A DNA stretch of 64,000 nt. Source: Leifsonia poae. Its GTDB lineage: Bacteria; Actinomycetota; Actinomycetes; Actinomycetales; Microbacteriaceae. The DNA lies in assembly GCF_027921845.1 (NCBI RefSeq), contig NZ_BSEN01000006.1:62001-126000 (forward strand). The letters run 5' to 3'. Below the pieces are notes generated by a model that did not search any database, was not told the origin of the DNA, and saw only the letters and a program-made list of their open reading frames with translations. Positions 53,471-64,000 of the stretch are shown here, one piece after another. Within the stretch, counting starts at the first letter, position 1; the number at the start of each line of letters is the position of its first letter. Position numbers and translations under genes: made by a program.

Positions 53471-54981
53471 TGACAACGGCGTCAGAGACGACGACGAGGA
53501 AGCCGGGAGGCGCACGGGTCCACGTGCAGCGCTTCGGTACCTTCCTCTCGAACATGGTCATGCCGAACATCCCGGCGTTCATCGCCTGGGGCATCATCAC
53601 GGCCCTCTTCATCGCAGAAGGTCCGATCCCCAACAAGGACATCGCGAGCATGGTCGGCCCGATGATCACCTACCTGCTCCCGCTCCTGCTCGCGAACACC
53701 GGTGGACGCCTCGTCTACGGCGTGCGCGGCGGCGTCGTCGGCACGATCGCGGCGATGGGCGTGATCGTCGGGACCGACATCCCGATGTTCATCGGCGCGA
53801 TGGTCATGGGTCCGCTCGGCGGCTACCTCATGAAGCTCGTCGACCGCATCTGGGAAGGCAAGATCAAGGCGGGCTTCGAGATGCTCGTCAACAACTTCTC
53901 GGCCGGCATCCTCGGCTTCGTCCTCGCGATCGGCGGGTTCTTCGGCATCGCCCCGCTGGTCGAGGGCCTGAGCAAGGCGCTCGAGAGCGGGGTGAACTGG
54001 CTCGTGTCGGTGCACCTGCTTCCGCTCGTCAGCATCCTGGTCGAGCCCGGCAAGGTCCTGTTCCTCAACAACGCCATCAACCACGGTGTCTTCACCCCGA
54101 TCGGAACCCTCGAGTCGCAGCAGGCCGGCAAGTCGATCCTGTTCCTGATCGAGACGAACCCCGGCCCCGGTGCCGGCATCCTGCTCGCGTGGGCGATCTT
54201 CGGCCTGGGCGCCGCCCGAGCGGCGGCTCCGGGAGCGTTCATCATCCAGTTCTTCGGCGGCATCCACGAGATCTACTTCCCGTACGTGCTCATGAAGCCG
54301 ATCCTGATCATCGGCGCCGTCCTCGGCGGCATGACCGGTGTCGCGGTGAACGTCGCCTTCCAGACCGGATTGCGAGCGCCAGCAGCACCAGGGTCCGTCT
54401 TCGCGATCTTCGCGCAGGCTCCCGTGTCGAGCATGTTCGGCATCGCGTTGGCGATCGTCGCGGCAGCCGCCGTCTCGTTCACCTTCACCGCCATCGTGTT
54501 GCGGTCCAGCCGGAGGCGCGACATCGCGGCGGGCAACGCCGGCGACCTCGCGGGCGCCGTCGCCCAGACCGAGGCCAACAAGGGCAAGTCGTCGTCGGTG
54601 CTCGGCGGCCTCGTGCAGGAGGGTGAGCACGACACCGGCGACGCCCAGGGCGACGCCACCGACCGACTGGTGCGCAACATCGTCTTCGCGTGCGACGCTG
54701 GGATGGGATCGAGCGCCATGGGCGCGTCGGTGCTCCGCAACAAGATGAAGAAGGCAGGAGTCGAGGGGGTCACGGTCACGAACCAGGCGATCAGCAATCT
54801 CGACGGCACGGCCGACCTCGTGATCACGCAGCAGCAGCTGACCGATCGCGCCAAGGGCCAGTCGCCGGACTCGGTCCACGTCTCGGTCGACAACTTCATG
54901 AACAGCCCCAAGTACGACGAGGTCGTCGAACTCGTGAAGAGCCAGACGCAGCAGAACACACCGGAGGACGTCAAGAAATGA
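53470..54981 (+). CDS. mtlA: Mannitol-specific PTS EIICB
   Basis: The 503-residue protein has a mannitol EIIC membrane domain (about 20-350) with [13 protein letters not shown] and [13 protein letters not shown], the conserved GIHE-type loop, then a linker and an EIIB domain with [13 protein letters not shown] (phospho-Cys408). It imports and phosphorylates mannitol to mannitol 1-phosphate. EIIA is separate (next gene), unlike E. coli MtlA. The ATG overlaps the ptsI stop, and the stop overlaps mtlF (ATGA). Confidence 0.95.
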
Positions 54982-55415
54982 CAGAAACGATTCTCGACCG
55001 GGCGAACGTGGTGGCCGCGGGCAGCGCGACCACCCGGGAGGACGCCATCCGCGAGGCGGGCGCGCTGCTGGTGAAGGCCGGCGCCGTCGAGCCGGGTTAC
55101 GTCGACTCGATGCAGGATCGCGAGAACACCGTGTCCACGTTCATGGGCAACGGGCTCGCCATCCCGCACGGCACCAACGAGTCCAAGGACGAGATCAAGC
55201 ACTCGGCGCTGTCGTTCATCCGCTACTCCTCCCCGCTCGACTGGGGCGGGGAGGAGGTGCGGTTCGTCGTCGGCATCGCCGGGCAGAACAACGAGCACCT
55301 GGAGATCCTGTCGAAGATCGCCATCCTCTTCTCGGAGGACGACGATGTTCAGAGCCTCCTCGATGCTCCGGATGCGGACGCCCTGTTCGCCCTCCTGGGG
55401 GATGTGAACGAGTGA
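54978..55415 (+). CDS. mtlF: Mannitol-specific PTS EIIA
   Basis: The 145-residue protein has the EIIA-Mtl/Fru fold with the active-site His64 in [11 protein letters not shown]. It passes phosphate from HPr to the EIIB domain of MtlA. Overlaps mtlA at the start and mtlD at the end (GTGA), so translation of the set is coupled. Confidence 0.95.
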
Positions 55416-56563
55416 AGGCCGTCCACTTCGGCGCCGGCAACATCGGCCGCGGCTTCGTGGGGCTCCTGCTCCACGAGGCCGGGTACGAGGTGGTCTTCGC
55501 CGACGTCAACGCCGAGCTGATCGACGCGCTCGCGGCGGCGGACTCGTACACGGTCCACCTGGTCGGAGAGACGGAGGAGACCCGCGTCGTCGACGGCTTC
55601 CGTGCGATCAACAGTGCGACCGACGAGGCGGCCCTGATCGCGGAGATCGCGACGGCCGACGTGGTGACCACGGCGGTCGGGCCGCGCATCCTGCGGTTCG
55701 TCGCCCCCGTGATCGCGGCCGGACTGGCCGCACGCCCCGATGACGCTCCGCGTCTCGCCGTGATGGCCTGCGAGAACGCCATCGGCGCGACGGATCTGCT
55801 CGCCGCTGAGATCGCCGACGGACTGCCCGACGATGCCGCACGCGAGGCGATCGCGGCAAAGGCGGTCTTCGCGAACACGGCCGTCGATCGCATCGTGCCC
55901 GCGCAGGACCCGGCGTCCGGCATCGACGTGACCGTGGAGACCTTCTCCGAGTGGGTCGTGGATCGCACGCCCTTCGCGGGCGGCGAGCCGGCAATCCCGG
56001 GCGCTCACTTCGTCGACGATCTCGCGCCGTACATCGAGCGCAAGCTGTTCACGGTGAACACCGGTCACGCGACGGTCGCCTACACGGGCTTCCTGCAGGG
56101 TGCGACCACGATCAGCGAGGCCATCGCCATCCCGGCGGTGCGGGAAGCGGCGGAGGCGGCACTCGCCGAGACCTCGGCGGCCCTCACGGCGAAGCACGGT
56201 CTCGACCCGGAGGAGCTCGCTGCGTACCGGGCGAAGATCCTCGACCGGTTCTCGAACCCGTACCTCGTCGACGAGGTGACGCGCGTCGGCCGGGAGCCGC
56301 TGCGCAAACTCGGACGCAACGAGCGTTTCATCGGGCCGGCGTCGGACTTCGTGCAGTACGTCGGTCGCACTCCGGATGCCCTGCTCGCCGCCGTCGGCGC
56401 CGCGCTACGGTTCGACGTCCCGGATGACTCGCAGAGCGTCGAGCTGCGGCGCATCCTCGAGGAGGCGGACCCGGACGAGGTCGTCACCGAGGTGATGGGC
56501 GTCGCGGCCGGCGAGCCGCTGTTCGCGCCGCTCGTGGAGATGGTGCGCGCGGCGCAGGTCTGA
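55412..56563 (+). CDS. mtlD: Mannitol-1-phosphate 5-dehydrogenase
   Basis: The 383-residue enzyme starts [20 protein letters not shown] (NAD-binding), with [15 protein letters not shown] and [20 protein letters not shown] downstream, as in the MtlD branch of polyol dehydrogenases. It oxidises mannitol 1-phosphate to fructose 6-phosphate. GTG start overlapping mtlF. Last gene of the operon. Confidence 0.95.
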
Positions 56564-56650: not shown

Positions 56651-57262
56651 TCAGCCCGCGTCGACGGTTTCGCGGGGCAGCAGCGGCGCCGACGGATCGA
56701 GCGACCACGCGAGCACGGACGGCCACTCGCCGTACCCGGCCGTGCGCTCGAGGTGGCCACCGCCCGGGATGACGACGACCGGGATGCCCAGCGGCGCTCC
56801 GAAAGCGGTGTCCGCACCCTCCGGGCAGTAGGGGTCGGCATCCGAGGCGGCGATCGTCGTTGCTGCGGACGGGCGGCTCGGGGTGAGAGCGGCGAACGCG
56901 GCGATCTCCGGGATGCCTCCGACGAACTCCCGTGACGGCGGCGCCACCAAGAGCACACGCTCGACGGACGCGTCGTCCGCGGGACGCGCGCCGAGCCAGA
57001 GCAGACACGCGAGGCTGTGGCACAGCACCGTGACGCGGGCGCCGTGGGCCGAGGCCTCGGCCAGAGCATCCGCCACCGCGTGCCGCCAGGCGGCGACGGA
57101 CGGCGTCGCGGCATCCGGCAGCTGCGGGTAGACGACGCGCTCCCCGCGCTCGCGCAGGGCCGCGGCGAGCTCGTGCTGCCAGTGCCCGGGCGGGCGGAAG
57201 TTGTCCCACCCGTGCAGGATCAGGAACGCGCGGGCGCCGGGCGCGGTCTCGGTCGAGGTCAT
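56651..57262 (-). CDS. RBBP9/YdeN-type serine hydrolase
   Basis: The 203-residue alpha/beta hydrolase has AFLILHGWDNFRPPGHWQHEL at the start, the nucleophile Ser in VLCHSLAC, an Asp in ASDADPYCP and His in PGGGHLE. This is the RBBP9/YdeN group of small serine hydrolases with unknown substrates. Monocistronic, convergent with mtlD. Confidence 0.88.
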   Translation of the reverse strand: MTSTETAPGARAFLILHGWDNFRPPGHWQHELAAALRERGERVVYPQLPDAATPSVAAWRHAVADALAEASAHGARVTVLCHSLACLLWLGARPADDASVERVLLVAPPSREFVGGIPEIAAFAALTPSRPSAATTIAASDADPYCPEGADTAFGAPLGIPVVVIPGGGHLERTAGYGEWPSVLAWSLDPSAPLLPRETVDAG

Positions 57263-57312
57263 CTGCTCATCAAAACGCACCGGACACGTCGCTCGCAATG
57301 CGGTCCCGCCGA

Positions 57313-58947
57313 TCAGGGGCGCGCGGGCGATCGATGCCGGAGGGCGCGGCCGGGGCGATGCGCAGTGCGCGTCCCGTCGTCGATCACGGGCACGCCGGCC
57401 ACGAACACCCACGGGATGCCGGCGGCGGTCCGGCGCGGGTCGTCGTACGTCGCGCGGTCCGACACCCGCGCGGGGTCGAAGAGCACGAGGTCGGCCACCG
57501 CGCCGGGCGCGATCCGCCCGCGGTCGGTGAGCCCGAGCCGGGCCGCCGGGCGCGCCGACAGGTGCACGATCGCGTCCTCGAGCGTGAGCACGCCCTCCTC
57601 GCGCACATAGCGGCCGAGGTAGCGCGGGAACGTCCCCCAGCCCCGTGGATGCGGCTTCGCGCCGATCAGGATCCCGTCGCTGCCCCCGGTGTGGCGCGGA
57701 TGACGCATCATCGTCCGCACGTTCTGCTCGTCGCCGACGTGCTGCAGGATACTCGTGCCGAGCCGGTCGGCGACGAGCAGTTCGAGGAACACCTCGGACG
57801 GCCGCTGTCCGTCGCGCGCACCCAGCGCCGCGATCGTGTGGCCGACCGCCGGCGCGAGCTGCGGGTTCCGCACGCCCGCGATCTCGATGGTCGCCCAGTC
57901 GACAGGGACGCCGTGGCAGCCGTCGGACCCGGTGACCTCGAGTTCGCGGACCACGCGCTCCCGGATGCCGGGGTCGCGCATCCGGTCGATGGTCGCGTCG
58001 GGACCGCCCACCGCCGACCAGCTCGGCAGCAGGGCCGCCAGTGTCGTCGCACCGGAGAGGTAGGGGTAGCTGTCGAGTGTGATGTCGACGCCGGCGGCGA
58101 TGCCCCGGTCGATGAGTTCGACGAGTTCACCGGCGCGGCCGCGGTTGACGTCGAAGTTCATCGTCGCGTGGGTGAGGTGCAACGCGCAGCGGGCGCGCGC
58201 GGCGATGTCGATCATCTCCGCATAGGCGTCGAGCGCGCCTGCTCCGTAGGAGCGCTGATGCGGTGCGTAGAAGCCTCCGTGCGACGCGACCACTTCGCAG
58301 AGCGCGACAAGTTCGTCGGTGCTCGCGAACATCCCGGGCACGTAGGTGAGCCCCGACGACATCCCGAAGGCGCCATCGCGCATCCCGTCGTCGACCAGGC
58401 GGCGCATCCGGGCGAGTTCGCTGCTGGTCGCCGGGCGGTCGTCCGTGCCGACGACGGCCATGCGCACGCTGCCCTGCGGCACCAGGTAGGCGACGTTCGT
58501 GGGCGGCCGGGCGTCGTCGACGGCGCGCAGGTATTCGCCGACGCTGCGCCAGGCGAAGTCGACGTCGGCGGGCACGCCGTTCCAGCCGGCGATCTGTTCG
58601 CGGATGACCGGCATCGTCGCCTCGGTGGCGGGAGCGTACGAGAGGCCGTCCTGACCGAGGACTTCGGTCGTCACACCCTGCGAGACCTTGGCGAGATGAT
58701 CGTGGTCGGTGAGCACGGCCAGATCGGAGTGGGCGTGCATGTCGATGAAGCCGGGGGCGATCGCGAGGCCGTCCGCATCGATCACGCGCGCTCCGGCGGG
58801 CGCGGCGACGTGAGGGTCGCCGGAGGTTCCGACGACGGCGACGCGTCCGTCGGCGACGAGCACGTCGGCCGTGCGCCCCGGCTCTCCCGATCCGTCGAGC
58901 ACGAGGCCGCCGCGGAGCAGGACGTCGCCGTCGCCAGGCACAGTCAT
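57313..58947 (-). CDS. N-acyl-D-amino-acid deacylase family amidohydrolase
   Basis: The 544-residue protein is an amidohydrolase of the D-aminoacylase group. It has PGFIDMHAHSDLAV (H71, H73), later histidines in YAPHQRSYG (H230) and LHLTHATMN, the catalytic Asp in TGGSDGILIG, and GTFPRYLGRYVREEGVL. At the position where classical D-aminoacylases have a metal-binding Cys (GNCG), this one has GQDG, so its specificity may differ. The family removes acyl groups from N-acyl-D-amino acids. Last gene of a leftward operon with a KDPG aldolase (4-bp overlap) and a PLP deaminase-like gene; I infer an N-acyl-D-glucosaminate-like substrate. Confidence 0.85.
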   Translation of the reverse strand: MTVPGDGDVLLRGGLVLDGSGEPGRTADVLVADGRVAVVGTSGDPHVAAPAGARVIDADGLAIAPGFIDMHAHSDLAVLTDHDHLAKVSQGVTTEVLGQDGLSYAPATEATMPVIREQIAGWNGVPADVDFAWRSVGEYLRAVDDARPPTNVAYLVPQGSVRMAVVGTDDRPATSSELARMRRLVDDGMRDGAFGMSSGLTYVPGMFASTDELVALCEVVASHGGFYAPHQRSYGAGALDAYAEMIDIAARARCALHLTHATMNFDVNRGRAGELVELIDRGIAAGVDITLDSYPYLSGATTLAALLPSWSAVGGPDATIDRMRDPGIRERVVRELEVTGSDGCHGVPVDWATIEIAGVRNPQLAPAVGHTIAALGARDGQRPSEVFLELLVADRLGTSILQHVGDEQNVRTMMRHPRHTGGSDGILIGAKPHPRGWGTFPRYLGRYVREEGVLTLEDAIVHLSARPAARLGLTDRGRIAPGAVADLVLFDPARVSDRATYDDPRRTAAGIPWVFVAGVPVIDDGTRTAHRPGRALRHRSPARP

Positions 58948-59573
58948 CGCCGGCGGGCGGCGGCGGAGAACTCGCGGGCGCGGGCGGTGATCGTCTCCCA
59001 GTCACCCGATTCGATGGAGGACGCGCTCACCACGCTGGAACCGGCCGTGACGGCGAGCGCGCCGGCCGCCGACCACTCGGCGGCGTTGCCCGCGTGCAGG
59101 CCGCCCGACGGGACGAACGGCACCTCGGGGAACGGACCGCGCAGGTCTTTCAGATAGCCGGGACCCACGAGGGAGGCCGGAAAGACCTTGACCGCCGCCG
59201 CGCCCCACTCGACGGCGCGCATCACCTCGGTCGGGCTGAGCGCGCCGAGCAGCACGGGCACGCCGGCCTCCCGGGCGACGGCGGCGACTCCTTCGTGCAG
59301 GCCCGGCGTCACCAGGAACTGTGCGCCCGCCCGGATCGCCGTCTCGGCCTTGTCGGTGTCGGTGACGGTCCCGGCCCCGATCACGGCTCCGGTCGTCCCC
59401 GCCTCTGCGACGGACGCCGCGATGATCTCGTCGACACCGGGGGTGGTGAACGTGAACTCGACCGTGCGGATGCCGCCGGCGACCAGAGCGCCGCAGAGCG
59501 CCACCGGGTCGTCGATGCGGGGCGCACGCACCACGGCCAGGGTGCGGTCGGTGCTCAGGATGTCGACGATCAT
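58944..59573 (-). CDS. eda: KDPG/KHG aldolase
   Basis: The 209-residue class I aldolase has the Schiff-base Lys129 in AAVKVFPAS, Glu39 in VEFTFTTPG and the phosphate-binding PSGGLHAGN. It splits 2-keto-3-deoxy-6-phosphogluconate to pyruvate and glyceraldehyde 3-phosphate (or 4-hydroxy-2-oxoglutarate to pyruvate and glyoxylate). Overlaps the deacylase gene by 4 bp and lies 56 bp after the deaminase-like gene. With the divergent KDG-type kinase it forms the last two steps of one route. Confidence 0.92.
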   Translation of the reverse strand: MIVDILSTDRTLAVVRAPRIDDPVALCGALVAGGIRTVEFTFTTPGVDEIIAASVAEAGTTGAVIGAGTVTDTDKAETAIRAGAQFLVTPGLHEGVAAVAREAGVPVLLGALSPTEVMRAVEWGAAAVKVFPASLVGPGYLKDLRGPFPEVPFVPSGGLHAGNAAEWSAAGALAVTAGSSVVSASSIESGDWETITARAREFSAAARRR

Positions 59574-59629
59574 GCGTCTCCTCTGGTGTGTCTCTTCTGC
59601 AGGATGTGCCGGTTGCGCAGGTGGTGCGT

Positions 59630-60913
59630 TCAGCCGAACGCGGTCTCGAGCAGCCCGGTGACCCGGGGATGCGGGGCGTCCACGTCATCGATGACGGCCA
59701 GTGCCCGCCACTTGTCGAAGGTGGTGCACGGATGCGAGAGGCCGAAGCGCACCACATCGCCCACCGCGAGCGCGGCATCCGGAGGCACCGCGACGAAGCT
59801 GTGCTGGTCGTTCATCGCGGTGACTGTCGCGCCCGTGAGCAGCCGGACCTCGGTCGATCCGAAGGCGCGAACCGCCTGAGGGAGGGGGAGGCCCTCGTCG
59901 TAGGGGAAGTCGCGCTTGCCCGCGTCCACCAGCGCCAGGCCCGGCTCCGGCCGGGACACGACGGTCGCCCAGCCGTGGATGGCGGAGCGGAACGATTCTC
60001 CTCCCACACGCCCGAGCGGGGTGATCCCGCTGTAGAAGCCGTCGTCGTGGGTGATGTACGCGCCCGACCGCAGGAGCACCTCGACCGCCCGGCCGCGGTG
60101 CCCATCGAGGTCGCGGAGCGGCCCGAGCACGTCGGCGACGACGTCGAAGTACGCGCTGCCGCCGGCGGTGACGATGACGCTCTCGCCGTGCGGGTAGAGG
60201 CCGTCGGCGGCGACGGCGTCGTGCAGCTCGGCGAGGCGCTCAAGATACGAACGCACCGTCTTCAGCGATTCGGCGTCGCCGGAGTGCGCCAGCGCGCCCT
60301 CGTAGCCGGCGACGCCCGCGAGCCGGAGCGAGGGGGAGGCGGCGATCGCGCGTGCGACGGCCAGCGCCTCGGGCAGGGTGCGTGCGCCGGTTCGGCCGCC
60401 GGCGCCGCCGAGTTCGACGAGCACGCCGAGCGGCGCACTGGCCCGGGCGGTGGTGCCCGAAAGTGTCGCGTGCATGATCTCGACCGCGCGCACCGAGTCG
60501 GCCCACACGATCACCTCGTGCGTGCCCGCCCTCGCGTCGGCCGCCGACGCGAGCCGCTCCGCGACGAAGCGCAACGCATCCGGTTGCACGAGCGCGTTGG
60601 CGAGCATCACGCGCGGGATGCCCCAGTCCATCGCGACGGAGAGCTGCCAGGGGGTCGCGACCGTGATGCCCCAGGCTCCGGCGGCGAGCTGGCGCTCCCA
60701 GAGCATCCGGTTCATGGTGGTCTTGCCGTGCGGTGCGAGTCCGACACCGGCGCGTTCGCACCATGCGCGCATCGTGTCGAGGTTGTGCTGCACGGCCGCC
60801 TCGCTGACGGTGACGAGCGGGGTGGGGAAGGTGCTCAGGGCGGGGCGCCGCTCGCCCAGTGCCGCGACGTCCGTGTCGTCGTACGACAGCGGCAGGGCCT
60901 TGCGGTCGCCCAT
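59630..60913 (-). CDS. D-threonine aldolase / D-serine dehydratase-like PLP enzyme
   Basis: The 427-residue enzyme has an alanine-racemase-type N-terminal barrel with the PLP lysine K64 in APHGKTTMNRM, and a C-terminal D-serine dehydratase-like domain with His394 and Cys396 in LSHPCTTFDKW, the zinc ligands of this family. Such enzymes deaminate beta-hydroxy D-amino acids (D-serine, D-threonine). D-glucosaminate is also a beta-hydroxy D-amino acid, and its dehydration gives 2-keto-3-deoxygluconate, the substrate expected for the neighbouring kinase and aldolase. First gene of the leftward operon, facing the kinase gene across a 30-bp palindrome. Confidence 0.88.
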   Translation of the reverse strand: MGDRKALPLSYDDTDVAALGERRPALSTFPTPLVTVSEAAVQHNLDTMRAWCERAGVGLAPHGKTTMNRMLWERQLAAGAWGITVATPWQLSVAMDWGIPRVMLANALVQPDALRFVAERLASAADARAGTHEVIVWADSVRAVEIMHATLSGTTARASAPLGVLVELGGAGGRTGARTLPEALAVARAIAASPSLRLAGVAGYEGALAHSGDAESLKTVRSYLERLAELHDAVAADGLYPHGESVIVTAGGSAYFDVVADVLGPLRDLDGHRGRAVEVLLRSGAYITHDDGFYSGITPLGRVGGESFRSAIHGWATVVSRPEPGLALVDAGKRDFPYDEGLPLPQAVRAFGSTEVRLLTGATVTAMNDQHSFVAVPPDAALAVGDVVRFGLSHPCTTFDKWRALAVIDDVDAPHPRVTGLLETAFG

Positions 60914-60949
60914 TCGCGTCTCCTTCGCTGCCTGTTGCGGGTTCATCGA

Positions 60950-60982
60950 TTGCACAGTGTGCAACGTGCGTTGCACACTGTG
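60950..60982. promoter_or_regulatory. 30-bp perfect palindromic operator in the divergent promoter
   Basis: CACAGTGTGCAACG (60953-60966), a TG centre and its complement (60969-60982) form a perfect 14-2-14 palindrome. Within it TTGCACAGTGTGCAA (60950-60964) is a 7-1-7 site with a second, offset copy on the other strand. It lies 37 bp from one start and 61 bp from the other, and is the probable binding site of the IclR regulator. Confidence 0.8.
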
Positions 60983-61043
60983 TCCTCCCTGTTCTACCAT
61001 CCTGAGAGACGCCGGCGGAACCCCGCAGGCGTCGACGGGGCAC

Positions 61044-62096
61044 ATGAACGACGACCGACCGGAGGAGCTCGAGGTGGCGGACGACCGACCGATCGCGATC
61101 ACCACGATCGGCGAGGCGATGGTCGTGCTGTTCCCCGAGGGGCAGCGCCCGTTGGCGGAGGCGCACGAGTTCGGGTCCGACGTCGGAGGTGCCGAGTTCA
61201 ACGTCGCCACCTCGCTCGCGCGCATGGGCGTCGCGACCGCCTGGATCTCCCGCCTCGGCGACGACGGCTTCGGCGACCGCATCCGCGCCACCGCGCTCGA
61301 GGCCGGCGTCGACCTCCGGGCCGTCGAACTCGATTCGGAGCGGCCGACCGGGCTGTACGTCAAGGAGTCGCTGGCGGGTCCGGACGGCGCACGCACCCGG
61401 ATGCACTACTACCGTCGCGAGTCGGCGGCGTCGGCGATCGGTCCCGCCACGCTCGACGGCGAGGGCGCGACGCAGGTCATGTCGACCTCGTCGATCGTGC
61501 ACACCTCCGGCATCACGGCCGCCCTCTCGGCGAGCACGGCAGAGGCCGTTGCGGGACTGCGCGAGCGTGTCGGGCCGTCCGCGATGGTGAGCGTCGATCT
61601 CAACTACCGGCCGCTGCTCTGGCGAGGGCGACCCACCGACGCCCTCGATGCGCTGATCGCGCAGGCGGACACGCTCTTCGCCGGGGTCGACGAGGCCGGC
61701 GTGTACTTCGGCCACGCAGAGCCGGACGCGCTCTTCGCTGCGCATCCGCACCTCGACCGGCTGGTGCTGAAAGACGATGACAGGGCCGCGTCGACGCTGC
61801 TGCGCGATGGGACGACCACCCACGTTCCGTGCCTCACCGTCGAGGTCGTCGAGCCGGTCGGAGCGGGCGACGCCTTCGCCGCCGGCTATCTGGCCGGGCT
61901 GGCGGAGGACCGCACGGACGTCGCATGCCTGCGGCTCGGGCACGCGCTCGCGGCGCTCACGCTCATCGGCGCGGGCGACCGGCCACTCACGGTTCCGGAT
62001 CCGGCGGAGCGCGATCGCATCGCCGAGGCGCCCGACGCCGAGTGGAACGGCTGGCGCGTGCATCCGGGCGATATCCCGTGGCGGAGCCGCGCGTGA
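61044..62096 (+). CDS. kdgK: PfkB-family sugar kinase, 2-keto-3-deoxygluconate kinase type
   Basis: The 350-residue kinase has the PfkB N-terminal GGAEFNVATSLARMGV, a mid region RMHYYRRESAASAI (as in KDG kinases) and the C-terminal signature PVGAGDAFAAGYLAG with the catalytic base D276. KDG kinases make KDPG from 2-keto-3-deoxygluconate. The aldolase gene just across the divergent promoter completes the step. Its stop overlaps the GTG of the IclR gene (GTGA). Confidence 0.88.
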   Translation: MNDDRPEELEVADDRPIAITTIGEAMVVLFPEGQRPLAEAHEFGSDVGGAEFNVATSLARMGVATAWISRLGDDGFGDRIRATALEAGVDLRAVELDSERPTGLYVKESLAGPDGARTRMHYYRRESAASAIGPATLDGEGATQVMSTSSIVHTSGITAALSASTAEAVAGLRERVGPSAMVSVDLNYRPLLWRGRPTDALDALIAQADTLFAGVDEAGVYFGHAEPDALFAAHPHLDRLVLKDDDRAASTLLRDGTTTHVPCLTVEVVEPVGAGDAFAAGYLAGLAEDRTDVACLRLGHALAALTLIGAGDRPLTVPDPAERDRIAEAPDAEWNGWRVHPGDIPWRSRA

Positions 62097-62911
62097 GTCA
62101 GTCGCTGTCCCGGGCCCTCGACCTGCTCGACCTCGTCGCGCGCGGGGTCGACTCGCTCGATGCGCTCGCCGATGCGGCCGGCGTGCACAAGACCACGGTG
62201 ATGCGGCTCCTCCAGACGCTCGACGCCCATGGCTACGTCACGCGGGACGCGTCGTACCGGTACCACCTGGGGTCCGCGGTGTTCGCGCTCGCCCAGACGG
62301 CGCTCGACGGCCAGGATGTGCGCAGGGTCGCCTCTCCGACGCTGCAGTCGCTCGGCGCTGCGACGGGACAGACCGTGCACCTCGCCGCCTACGACGACGG
62401 CACCGTGATCTACATCGACAAGGTGGAGTCGCGGCAGCCGTTGCGGATGTACTCGCGCATCGGGCTCCCGGCTGCGCTGCACGCCACTGCGGTGGCCAAG
62501 GTGCTGCTGGGCGGCCTCGACGACGGCGAGCTGCAGCGCATCGCCGACGCGATCGACTACGAGCGGTTCACCGGCTCGACCATCCTCACCCCGCAGGCCC
62601 TGGTCCGCGAGGTGCGGCTCAGCGCCGAGCGAGGGTGGGCGGTGGATCACGAGGAGCACGAGACCTTCATGAACTGCGTCGGCGCTCCGGTCTTCGGCGC
62701 AGACGGACGGGTGGCCGCCGCCGTCTCGATCTCGGTGCCGAACCAGGTGCTGAGCTACGACCAGGTGCTCGGCCTGCTGCCGGCACTGCATGCGGCCACC
62801 ACGACGATCTCCGCGAACCTCGGCTACTCCGGGGACGCCCCGTTCCTCCCACCGGCCCCGTCCGCCTCCCACGGCTCACGGAGCCCCCGCGTCTCGAAAG
62901 GACAGTCATGA
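62093..62911 (+). CDS. IclR family regulator of the amino-sugar-acid cluster
   Basis: The 272-residue protein has an N-terminal winged helix (SLDALADAAGVHKTTVMRLLQTL, about 18-70) and an IclR ligand domain with LHATAVAKVLLGGL and AVDHEEHETFMNCVGAPVFG. It is embedded between the kinase and RidA genes with 4-bp overlaps at both ends, so it is cotranscribed with its likely targets. The palindrome at 60953-60982 is its probable operator; the inducer is probably a pathway acid. Confidence 0.92.
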   Translation: MSQSLSRALDLLDLVARGVDSLDALADAAGVHKTTVMRLLQTLDAHGYVTRDASYRYHLGSAVFALAQTALDGQDVRRVASPTLQSLGAATGQTVHLAAYDDGTVIYIDKVESRQPLRMYSRIGLPAALHATAVAKVLLGGLDDGELQRIADAIDYERFTGSTILTPQALVREVRLSAERGWAVDHEEHETFMNCVGAPVFGADGRVAAAVSISVPNQVLSYDQVLGLLPALHAATTTISANLGYSGDAPFLPPAPSASHGSRSPRVSKGQS

Positions 62912-63312
62912 CCGACCGCATCGCCCTCTCCACCACCGACGCCCCCGCACCGGCGCACACCTTCTCGCAGGGGGTCAAGCGCGGCCCGTTCGTGCAGGTG
63001 TCCGGCCAGGGCCCTGTCGATCCGGCCACTGGCGAATACGTGTTCGGCGGCGATGTCGCGGCGCAGACGACCCGCACGCTGCAGAACGTCGAGGCGATCC
63101 TCGCTGCGGGCGGCGCCACGTTCGACGACGTGATGATGCTGCGGGTGTACCTGACGAAGCGCGAGGACTTCGCGGCGATGAACGACGCCTACGGCGAGTT
63201 CGTCGGCTCGCGGGTCGCCTCCGGCGTGCTGCCCTCGCGCACCACCGTGTTCACGGGGCTGCCCCGCGAGGAGATGCTCGTCGAGATCGACGCGCTCGCC
63301 GTCACCGACTGA
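62908..63312 (+). CDS. ridA: RidA family enamine/imine deaminase
   Basis: The 134-residue protein has the YjgF/RidA fold: VKRGPFVQVSGQGPVDPATGEYV, NVEAILAAGGATFDDVM, and LPSRTTVFTGLPR with the active-site arginine, then MLVEIDALA. RidA removes reactive enamine/imine products released by PLP deaminases, which fits the D-serine dehydratase-like gene in the same cluster. AAAGGA precedes the ATG, which overlaps the IclR stop (ATGA). Confidence 0.92.
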   Translation: MTDRIALSTTDAPAPAHTFSQGVKRGPFVQVSGQGPVDPATGEYVFGGDVAAQTTRTLQNVEAILAAGGATFDDVMMLRVYLTKREDFAAMNDAYGEFVGSRVASGVLPSRTTVFTGLPREEMLVEIDALAVTD

Positions 63313-63345
63313 GCCCGGGAGCGAAGCCGTACCGCTCGAGCCGCT

Positions 63346-63390
63346 GTTGCGCCGAGGTCGCGGCCGTTGTCGCACCGAGGTCGCAGCAAC
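63346..63390. repeat. Direct and inverted repeat before the permease gene
   Basis: CCGAGGTCGC occurs at 63352-63361 and 63375-63384, 23 bp apart, bracketed by GTTGC (63346-63350) and GCAAC (63386-63390). Role unknown; it is in design like the other intergenic repeats. Confidence 0.6.
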
Positions 63391-63429
63391 TGCGTGTGCC
63401 GGGGAAGCATCCGCCACTAGATTCACCGT

Positions 63430-64000
63430 ATGAGCGACATCGCGCTGACCCTGGTGATCCTCGCGCTGGTCGTCGTCGCGTTCGTCAGCGGCAGGATCCC
63501 GGCGGGGCTCGTGGCTATCGGCGCATCGCTGGCCTTGCTGGCGACCGGCGTGCTCGACCTCTCCCAGGCGTTCGCGGGCTTCGCCGACCCCGCGGTCGTG
63601 CTGATCGCCTCCCTGTTCGTCGTGGCGGAAGGCCTCGACGCCACGGGACTGACGGGATGGGCCGGGCAGCAGATCGTCAACCGCGGCGGGACGCGGGTCG
63701 GCGTGCTCACCGTGCTCGTCATGCTCGTCGTCGCGGTGCTCTCGGCCCTGATCAGCGTGAACGGAGGCGTGGCCGCGCTGCTGCCGGTCGTCGTCGTGGT
63801 CGCCTCGCGCATCCACGTCGCCCCGTCTCGACTGCTGCTGCCGCTGGCGTTCGGCGCGCACGCCGGCTCCCTGCTGACCCTCACCGGAAGCCCGGTGAAC
63901 GTGATCATCTCCGAGCTCGCCGCCGAGACGGGGCACGGGGCATTCGGATACTTCGAATTCACCGCGATCGGAGCCGTGCTCGTGGTCGGCACCGTGCTGA
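63430..64000 (+). CDS. SLC13/DASS-type anion permease, N-terminal part
   Basis: The gene runs off the window; 190 residues are visible. They hold four to five membrane segments and a SLC13-like hallmark, HAGSLLTLTGSPVNVIISE, with the SPVN motif typical of carboxylate permeases. The family imports di- and tricarboxylates or sugar acids with sodium. As the last visible gene after RidA, 117 bp on and in the same direction, it is a candidate for uptake of the amino-sugar acid. Its C-terminal TrkA-C domains, if any, lie outside the window. Confidence 0.83.
   Translation, partial: MSDIALTLVILALVVVAFVSGRIPAGLVAIGASLALLATGVLDLSQAFAGFADPAVVLIASLFVVAEGLDATGLTGWAGQQIVNRGGTRVGVLTVLVMLVVAVLSALISVNGGVAALLPVVVVVASRIHVAPSRLLLPLAFGAHAGSLLTLTGSPVNVIISELAAETGHGAFGYFEFTAIGAVLVVGTVL

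Follow-up and report, generated by a model that had tools for sequence, protein, structure and literature searches.

The last part of a 64,000-nucleotide stretch of a Leifsonia poae contig (the window, by which we mean the whole stretch analysed) carries, at positions 57313–64000, a cluster of seven in-frame genes forming two divergent transcription units that flank one operator, examined here as a candidate catabolic pathway for N-acylated amino sugar acids. The leftward unit runs from a pyridoxal phosphate (PLP) enzyme through a 2-keto-3-deoxy-6-phosphogluconate (KDPG) aldolase to a deacylase; the rightward unit consists of a PfkB kinase, an IclR regulator, a RidA protein and then an SLC13/CitMHS carrier. 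The features are as follows.

57313–58947, minus strand: candidate N-acyl aldonate deacylase (Amidohydro_3; D-aminoacylase-like amidohydrolase), 544 amino acids; assigned by Pfam, alignment and tree
58944–59573, minus strand: KDPG/2-keto-4-hydroxyglutarate (KHG) aldolase (Eda); TIGR01182 above cut-off
59630–60913, minus strand: candidate fold-III PLP beta-hydroxy-D-amino-acid ammonia-lyase (OngC/D-serine deaminase-like); Pfam D-ser_dehydrat and Ala_racemase_N
60953–60982, strandless: operator CACAGTGTGCAACG-TG-CGTTGCACACTGTG; perfect palindrome arms
61044–62096, plus strand: PfkB sugar kinase of 2-keto-3-deoxygluconate (KDG) kinase type; Pfam, best solved relative 1v19
62093–62911, plus strand: IclR-family regulator; Pfam, with BhcR and KdgR as nearest curated models, both below cut-off
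62908–63312, plus strand: RidA-family protein; Pfam above cut-off, TIGR00004 below
63430–64000, plus strand: SLC13/CitMHS carrier with TrkA_C domains, of which the window holds the 5' part (full length 600 amino acids); Pfam

All seven genes received a Pfam assignment. Eda alone passed an NCBIfam cut-off (TIGR01182, 182.8 bits against 156.05). The kinase (142 against 400 for NF040938, KDG/2-keto-3-deoxygalactonate (KDGal) kinase), RidA (95.5 against 106.25), the IclR regulator (BhcR, 174 against 350; KdgR, 164 against 275) and the carrier (156 against 198.6) scored below the curated cut-offs, and their names therefore hold at family level. The kinase being below the curated equivalog NF040938, its KDG type was assigned by its best solved relative only, the KDG kinase 1v19 (124 bits). 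The PLP enzyme retains the PLP-lysine motif APHGKTTM and the zinc (HPC) motif SHPCTTFDKWR, that is, the PLP Lys and the His/Cys zinc motif by which membership of the fold-III D-serine dehydratase-like family (PF14031) was judged, and its nearest solved structure is the D-serine deaminase 3gwq. Among the cluster copies, the Lys and Glu columns of Eda are retained in 64 of 65 and the Arg pattern of RidA is matched in 85 of 111. Four-base gene overlaps at 58944–58947, 62093–62096 and 62908–62911 suggest translational coupling of the genes concerned. The carrier gene ends 1.2 kb past the window (L002:9430–11232).

The palindrome between the two units has perfect arms of 14 bases with a gap of 2 bases. 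Allowing up to 3 mismatches, its 22-base core has no second match in the window, where 0.00 were expected, and its 16-base core occurs exactly once in the genome of 4.07 Mb. With the TTGCA half site that starts at 60950, the palindrome also provides TTGCA-N5-TGCAA, a form conserved in other actinobacteria, and the window operator contains both this form and GCAACG-NN-CGTTGC. The operator was surveyed at 83 loci with the PLP gene and the kinase gene divergent within 700 bases (two genomes are included twice, L066 = L084 and L076 = L089). TTGCA-N5-TGCAA was found with at most 1 mismatch in 75 of these 83 intergenic regions, against a mean of 0.55 and a maximum of 2 by chance over 20 resamplings; 79 regions have one of three related operator forms. 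Within the L. poae genome, TTGCA-N5-TGCAACG is perfect at this site only. A wider regulon was considered and rejected, as matches with up to 1 mismatch numbered 5 forward and 3 reverse, the perfect one included, against 8 and 3 for a reversed-pattern control. Because there is one perfect genomic site and the one-mismatch matches do not exceed the control, the IclR regulator probably acts locally.

A scan of named genomes returned at least 570 confirmed deacylase relatives, of which the best 80, all actinobacterial by their titles, were analysed; gene presence was scored by tblastn within about 9 kb of the deacylase, and loci interrupted by contig ends were counted as they stand. At these best 80 of at least 570 loci, the PLP enzyme was found at 74, RidA at 75, IclR at 68, the KDG kinase (KdgK) at 61 and Eda at 37, and PLP enzyme, RidA and KdgK stood together beside the deacylase at 60. 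A GntP carrier was present at 50 and an SLC13 carrier at none. Within the genus, a deacylase of at least 69% identity occurs in 16 of 28 genomes (the window's own included), and all 16 loci have the complete six-gene core of deacylase, Eda, PLP enzyme, kinase, IclR and RidA. The existing annotation of a Tsukamurella plasmid record lists the same gene set plus a gluconate:H+ symporter. We conclude that the six genes are a conserved divergent cluster in Actinomycetota. The SLC13 gene is inserted in 3 of the 16 same-genus loci, including that of the window, and is accessory, plausibly a local stand-in for GntP. The initial annotation of this DNA, which had lined up seven genes around one operator as a full route, thus holds for the presence of these elements and fails for the SLC13 carrier as a fixed part.

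Several loci depart from this arrangement. In a seventeenth genus genome (G022) the deacylase is in two pieces; at this locus (L060) the aldolase and the PLP gene are also each matched in two pieces, with a GntP gene still adjoining, and the cluster is probably a decaying copy. A second type of deacylase, 41–45% identical, was found in three genus genomes, G001, G003 and G020, whose loci (L043, L046 and L045, respectively) carry Eda, KdgK, PLP enzyme and RidA without the window type. The second-type clusters L043 and L047 have MFS carriers, and in L043 the MFS carrier and a YheO-type regulator are interposed in the cluster. At the Promicromonospora loci L083 and L085, a 72–74% identical deacylase adjoins a PALP-family PLP enzyme and no fold-III match was obtained, which looks like replacement of the fold-III enzyme by an unrelated one; L083 additionally has GntR, LacI and sugar ABC genes.

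Gene content, conserved order, the conserved operator, retained catalytic motifs and gluconate-type carriers in relatives are the observations from which we interpret the cluster, with a probability of roughly 0.65, as a route by which actinobacteria break down an N-acylated 2-amino-2-deoxy-aldonate, N-acetyl-D-glucosaminate (GlcNAc1A) being the likeliest; all of the reactions, the identity of the acyl group, the configuration of the sugar and the inducer are what we infer. Uptake would be of the aldonate itself, through GntP in most relatives and perhaps through the SLC13 carrier in this strain. The amidohydrolase would strip the acyl group, the PLP enzyme would dehydrate and deaminate D-glucosaminate via an enamine/imine, and RidA would speed hydrolysis of this intermediate to KDG, which the kinase would convert to KDPG for cleavage by Eda to pyruvate and glyceraldehyde-3-phosphate. 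IclR would govern both divergent transcripts from the single operator, probably in response to KDG or a similar keto acid. A KDG-like product of the deaminase fits, because a KDG-type kinase and a KDPG aldolase share the cluster. The route logic proposed in the initial annotation is upheld, as is its KDG end, with this kinase and with Eda as the sole PF01081 member of the genome, and the Gammaproteobacterial N-acetylglucosaminate precedent that it mentioned is the ong pathway of Pseudoalteromonas prydzensis, which catabolises GlcNAc1A (Jiang 2022; PMC9537276). In PMC9537276, OngB is the GlcNAc1A deacetylase, OngC converts glucosaminate to KDG and acts also on D-Ser and D-Thr, KdgK phosphorylates KDG, and OngD, a RidA protein, is required for growth; the regulator OngR is a repressor of the RpiR family, transport is by an SSS protein and kdgA is present in some clusters. 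In agreement with the initial annotation, which knew of no such route worked out in actinobacteria, none of the papers listed by searches of openly licensed PubMed Central (PMC) literature described an actinobacterial version.

The first enzyme was examined in an alignment of 120 of 125 deacylase loci (L041 and L058–L061 were left out, their matches being too short). Its metal and catalytic positions by alignment are H71, H73, D100, H230, H260 and D424, with D100 at the zinc-ligand Cys position. The replacement of GNCG by GQDG is a fixed feature, Asp being present in 102 of 102 homologues of at least 55% identity and in 12 of 12 at 37–54%, and D100 was invariant in 31 of 31 sequences in an invariant-column check. 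The window deacylase therefore does not match the Cys/His/His metal site of the D-aminoacylases (subtype V amidohydrolases), having Asp for Cys; it retains their HxH, catalytic Asp, and Tyr and Arg anchors. All 102 homologues likewise retain both His, the catalytic Asp, Tyr285 and Arg379 (numbering of PpOngB, a proven GlcNAc1A deacetylase). According to PMC12017989, the zinc of PpOngB is held by Cys97, His222 and His252, Asp368 is catalytic, Lys254, Tyr285 and Arg379 bind the carboxylate, and sugar versus amino-acid specificity is set by Ser292 and Gln298; the OngB enzymes tested there were active only on GlcNAc1A, and two D-aminoacylases only on N-acetyl-D-amino acids. The initial annotation had taken loss of the Cys as fitting a different acyl substrate. 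This does not follow, since the position is a zinc ligand and PpOngB keeps the Cys.

In the deacylase tree, for which support is SH-aLRT (Shimodaira–Hasegawa-like approximate likelihood ratio test) only, OngB groups with the Alcaligenes faecalis D-aminoacylase (100), the window clade is separate (97, 29 rows) and so is the second clade (99, 9 rows). A PLP enzyme gene lies near the Asp-type deacylase in 106 of 115 loci, and 4 of 4 control loci with a Cys-type D-aminoacylase from the same order are without any pathway genes nearby; L062, with Ser at the Cys position, was counted as neither type, and these type and neighbour counts are not independent of descent and include two genomes twice. The solved structure 9g5m appears to be the deacylase at L165:8992–10431, in an ong-type cluster on a Klebsiella plasmid record, with zero branch length in the tree; no mention of the structure codes 9g5m or 9gv8 was found in the openly licensed PMC literature searched.

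A number of observations, on the deacylase, the PLP enzyme, the neighbouring genes and the rest of the genome, weigh against the interpretation as a GlcNAc1A pathway. In the 102 homologues, the Lys254 position is occupied by Thr (98), Val (3) or His (1), and Glu226 is replaced by Tyr and Ser292 by Thr without exception. At the 12 loci of 37–54% identity, Tyr replaces Glu226 throughout, with Thr at position 292 in 7 of them and Ser in the other 5; the Gln298 position gave no safe alignment for the window deacylase. Thr at position 292 is the state seen in D-aminoacylases, the stretch from Tyr294 to Asp424 has 130 residues against 83 in PpOngB (47 longer), and among solved structures the D-aminoacylase 1m7j scores 272 bits, 3gip 246, 9g5m 240 and PpOngB 194. 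Such differences from OngB, in side-chain contacts and in the insertion stretch, would also suit another N-acylated 2-amino-2-deoxy-aldonate, be it N-acetyl-D-galactosaminate, an acid with another or longer acyl group or one still glycosylated, that is processed in the same way, via a keto-deoxy sugar acid and its phosphate, to pyruvate. The pathway might accommodate a different sugar, since the annotation of the Klebsiella ong-type cluster (L165) names a keto-deoxy-galactonate kinase and aldolase; the KDG and KDGal kinase models also overlap. However, the best solved relative of the kinase is a KDG kinase, Eda passes the KDPG/KHG model, and the glycoside hydrolase family 20 (GH20) and lactonase neighbours in some relatives fit acids released from chito-oligosaccharides. 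We therefore regard another aldonate as an unlikely substrate.

The PLP enzyme is 39% identical to relatives from Klebsiella variicola/Pantoea and 34% identical to OngC. These relatives adjoin an amino-acid ABC carrier, RidA and IclR, without deacylase or kinase, and the midpoint-rooted PLP tree puts them on the actinobacterial side, with OngC and 3gwq opposite. Because the enzyme groups with relatives linked to an amino-acid carrier, a D-amino-acid role is possible. Moreover, KdgK was not in range at 19 of the best 80 of at least 570 loci, and an amino-acid permease adjoins the L078 cluster on the opposite strand. The cluster might accordingly scavenge N-acyl-D-amino acids with a beta-hydroxyl, such as N-acyl-D-Ser or N-acyl-D-Thr, its kinase and aldolase serving another sugar acid under the same regulator; the nearest solved structures of the deacylase (a D-aminoacylase) and the PLP enzyme ('D-serine deaminase'), the Thr at position 292 and the deamination of D-Ser and D-Thr by OngC (PMC9537276) point the same way. 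Set against this are the presence of KdgK in 61 and Eda in 37 of those best 80 loci, with both in 16 of 16 same-genus loci, the GH20, lactonase and sugar-type ABC genes beside some clusters, and the carriers. Five GntP proteins out of the 52 Asp-type loci with GntP were compared with models, and in all five the three gluconate equivalog models outscored DsdX (for L037, 336, 276 and 239 against 220 bits); they passed the gluconate:H+ symporter subfamily cut-off and no equivalog cut-off, with PRK09821 or that subfamily as the top model, and are thus closer to gluconate carriers than to DsdX. Among the neighbouring genes scanned, a sample only, none was recognised as an amino-acid ABC carrier. 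Scavenging of N-acyl-D-amino acids consequently appears improbable.

The glycan-linked neighbours are unevenly distributed. Of the 125 deacylase loci, 9 have a GH20 gene no more than 9 kb away: six from Pseudonocardiaceae, two (L049 and L051) from one other genus, and L162, in which the gene lies at a distance of about 6 kb and is probably not linked to the cluster. KdgK is in range at L111, L131, L147 and L162 only; it is missing at L049, L051, L100, L107 and L110, and at L107 the deacylase is also without PLP enzyme or RidA. In L131 and L147, which have the kinase, deacylase, lactonase and GH20 are consecutive on one strand and followed by a sugar-type binding protein, and L111 has lactonase, sugar-type binding protein and GH20 farther along. 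In L049 and L051, GH20 is directly upstream of deacylase, PLP enzyme and RidA, its domain ending about 280–290 bases from the deacylase match. Ten loci, all from Pseudonocardiaceae, have a lactonase no more than 9 kb from the deacylase; KdgK is in range at three of them (L111, L131, L147) and not at the other seven. GH20 supports the amino-sugar interpretation in two lineages, mostly away from the kinase-bearing full form. Two findings slightly reduced our confidence in the GlcNAc1A pathway: the kinase is missing from most of the loci with a lactonase and most of those with a linked GH20, and the PLP enzyme falls with relatives of amino-acid type.

Other features were seen at or near these loci. 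The Pseudonocardiaceae loci L100, L110, L112, L118, L138 and L148 have the lactonase with PLP enzyme, deacylase, RidA and IclR, and no KdgK in range, and L051 has a BCCT carrier upstream of the cluster. On the L. poae contig, a PF10282 beta-propeller lactonase lies outside the window, about 7 kb past the carrier (L002:18139–18999); its family occurs near related Pseudonocardiaceae clusters, and it was not taken as part of the cluster.

That the cluster is the true ong pathway acquired from Gammaproteobacteria, with which it shares enzyme families and logic, was rejected as extremely improbable, being contradicted by the trees, in which OngB and OngC group with proteobacterial relatives apart from the actinobacterial clades (SH-aLRT only), by low identity to a Pseudoalteromonas ong cluster (L163, from a record cited in PMC9537276; deacylase 31%, PLP enzyme 34%, kinase 24%, RidA without a match at E 0.001) and by different regulator and carrier families.

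For the GlcNAc1A pathway that we favour, the genome itself supplies further adverse points. A search of this genome did not find GntP, LPMO_10 gave zero matches here and in the 27 other genus genomes, the one GH18 match of this genome is below cut-off, and eight MR_MLE_C matches leave other sources of KDG possible. In favour of a KDG-like deaminase product, the sole ILVD/EDD protein is predicted to be IlvD, its open frame having 565 residues, much as in the best match of many relatives, and UxuA was absent when this genome was searched. Two GH20 genes are present, away from the cluster. Co-occurrence with lytic polysaccharide monooxygenases (LPMOs) was tried as support and set aside, LPMO_10 occurring in 6 of 99 relatives, and three of these six having a deacylase of at least 40% identity. 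The initial annotation had called for an LPMO search; with no LPMO_10 in the 28 genus genomes and no GH18 above cut-off here, an origin in the strain's own oxidised chitin is not borne out. The strain would thus live on acids or oxidised oligosaccharides that other organisms produce. D-Glucosaminic acid is a carbon source on Biolog plates.

In broader terms, the data may point to a second, separately evolved family of N-acyl-aldosaminate deacylases in actinobacteria, with an Asp-ligated metal centre and a rebuilt pocket, at the head of an IclR-controlled pathway for oxidised amino sugars that is widespread, is not tied to the organisms' own LPMOs and is fed by acids from other organisms; we advance this tentatively, at slightly less than even odds. 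C1-oxidising LPMOs leave N-acetylglucosaminate at chitin ends. If the interpretation is correct, a pathway of their own in actinobacteria, which are major soil decomposers, would alter the fate of oxidised chitin in soil even where an LPMO is lacking, and the deacylase clade, with Asp as a metal ligand, would give work on amino-sugar enzymes a fresh starting point.

Downstream of the deacylase, on the same strand, lies a small serine hydrolase gene (PF06821; window 56651–57361, minus strand), which is kept in 12 of 16 same-genus loci; its gene family turned up only in same-genus loci (7), and it was rejected as part of the cluster. Phosphotransferase system genes and a mannitol-1-phosphate dehydrogenase adjoin the cluster (window about 53500–56563). 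Among the 16 same-genus loci, the cluster is flanked by a type III polyketide synthase in 14 and, at the opposite end, by mannitol-phosphate dehydrogenase in 13.

Among known systems, D-glucosaminate ammonia-lyase routes (e.g. Pseudomonas EC 4.3.1.9) start from glucosaminate or its 6-phosphate and yield a 2-keto-3-deoxy acid plus ammonia; they involve no acyl removal, and the 6-phosphate route uses a different enzyme family. With the D-aminoacylases (A. faecalis, 1m7j; Bordetella N-acyl-D-Glu deacylase, 3gip) the window deacylase shares the fold family, HxH, the two metal His, the catalytic Asp, the Tyr and Arg anchors and Thr at the Ser292 position. In contrast to them, its clade has Asp for the Cys ligand, has lost the Lys anchor and has a longer insertion stretch, and in our sample the window-type deacylase is usually found among KDG-pathway genes. 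The PLP enzyme shares its PLP motif, zinc motif and substrate-side motifs with 3gwq and OngC, but belongs to a separate actinobacterial clade and is 34% identical to OngC.

The closest parallel is the ong pathway. A D-aminoacylase-like deacetylase, a fold-III PLP deaminase, RidA and a PfkB KDG kinase in one regulated locus are common to both; a KDPG aldolase is present in some ong clusters, and GH20, which is OngA in the ong cluster, also adjoins some of the actinobacterial clusters. In the window cluster, however, the deacylase belongs to a clade of its own, has Asp in place of Cys and lacks Lys254, the regulator is IclR instead of RpiR, the carrier is GntP or SLC13 instead of SSS, and the genome has no LPMO_10. 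In PMC9537276, genomes with both an ong cluster and an lpmo gene were Gammaproteobacteria and one Betaproteobacterium only, and the screen required at least 4 co-located homologues above 30% identity, so that a screen of this type would probably miss the present cluster. Two features taken to define an ong locus give opposite answers. The fold-III PLP deaminase, RidA and KDG-type kinase stand together here in one locus, and an OngB-clade deacetylase with the GlcNAc1A-binding residues does not, as Cys97, Lys254, Glu226 and Ser292 are all changed; as to carrier and GH20, SLC13 is found in 3 of 16 same-genus loci, GntP in relatives and cluster-linked GH20 only in other actinobacteria. Because the OngB residue test fails, the functional likeness rests on gene context. 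As judged from sequence, the cluster would work like the ong pathway and by the residue test is not a member of it; it is known pathway logic in a new lineage, with a non-orthologous first enzyme.

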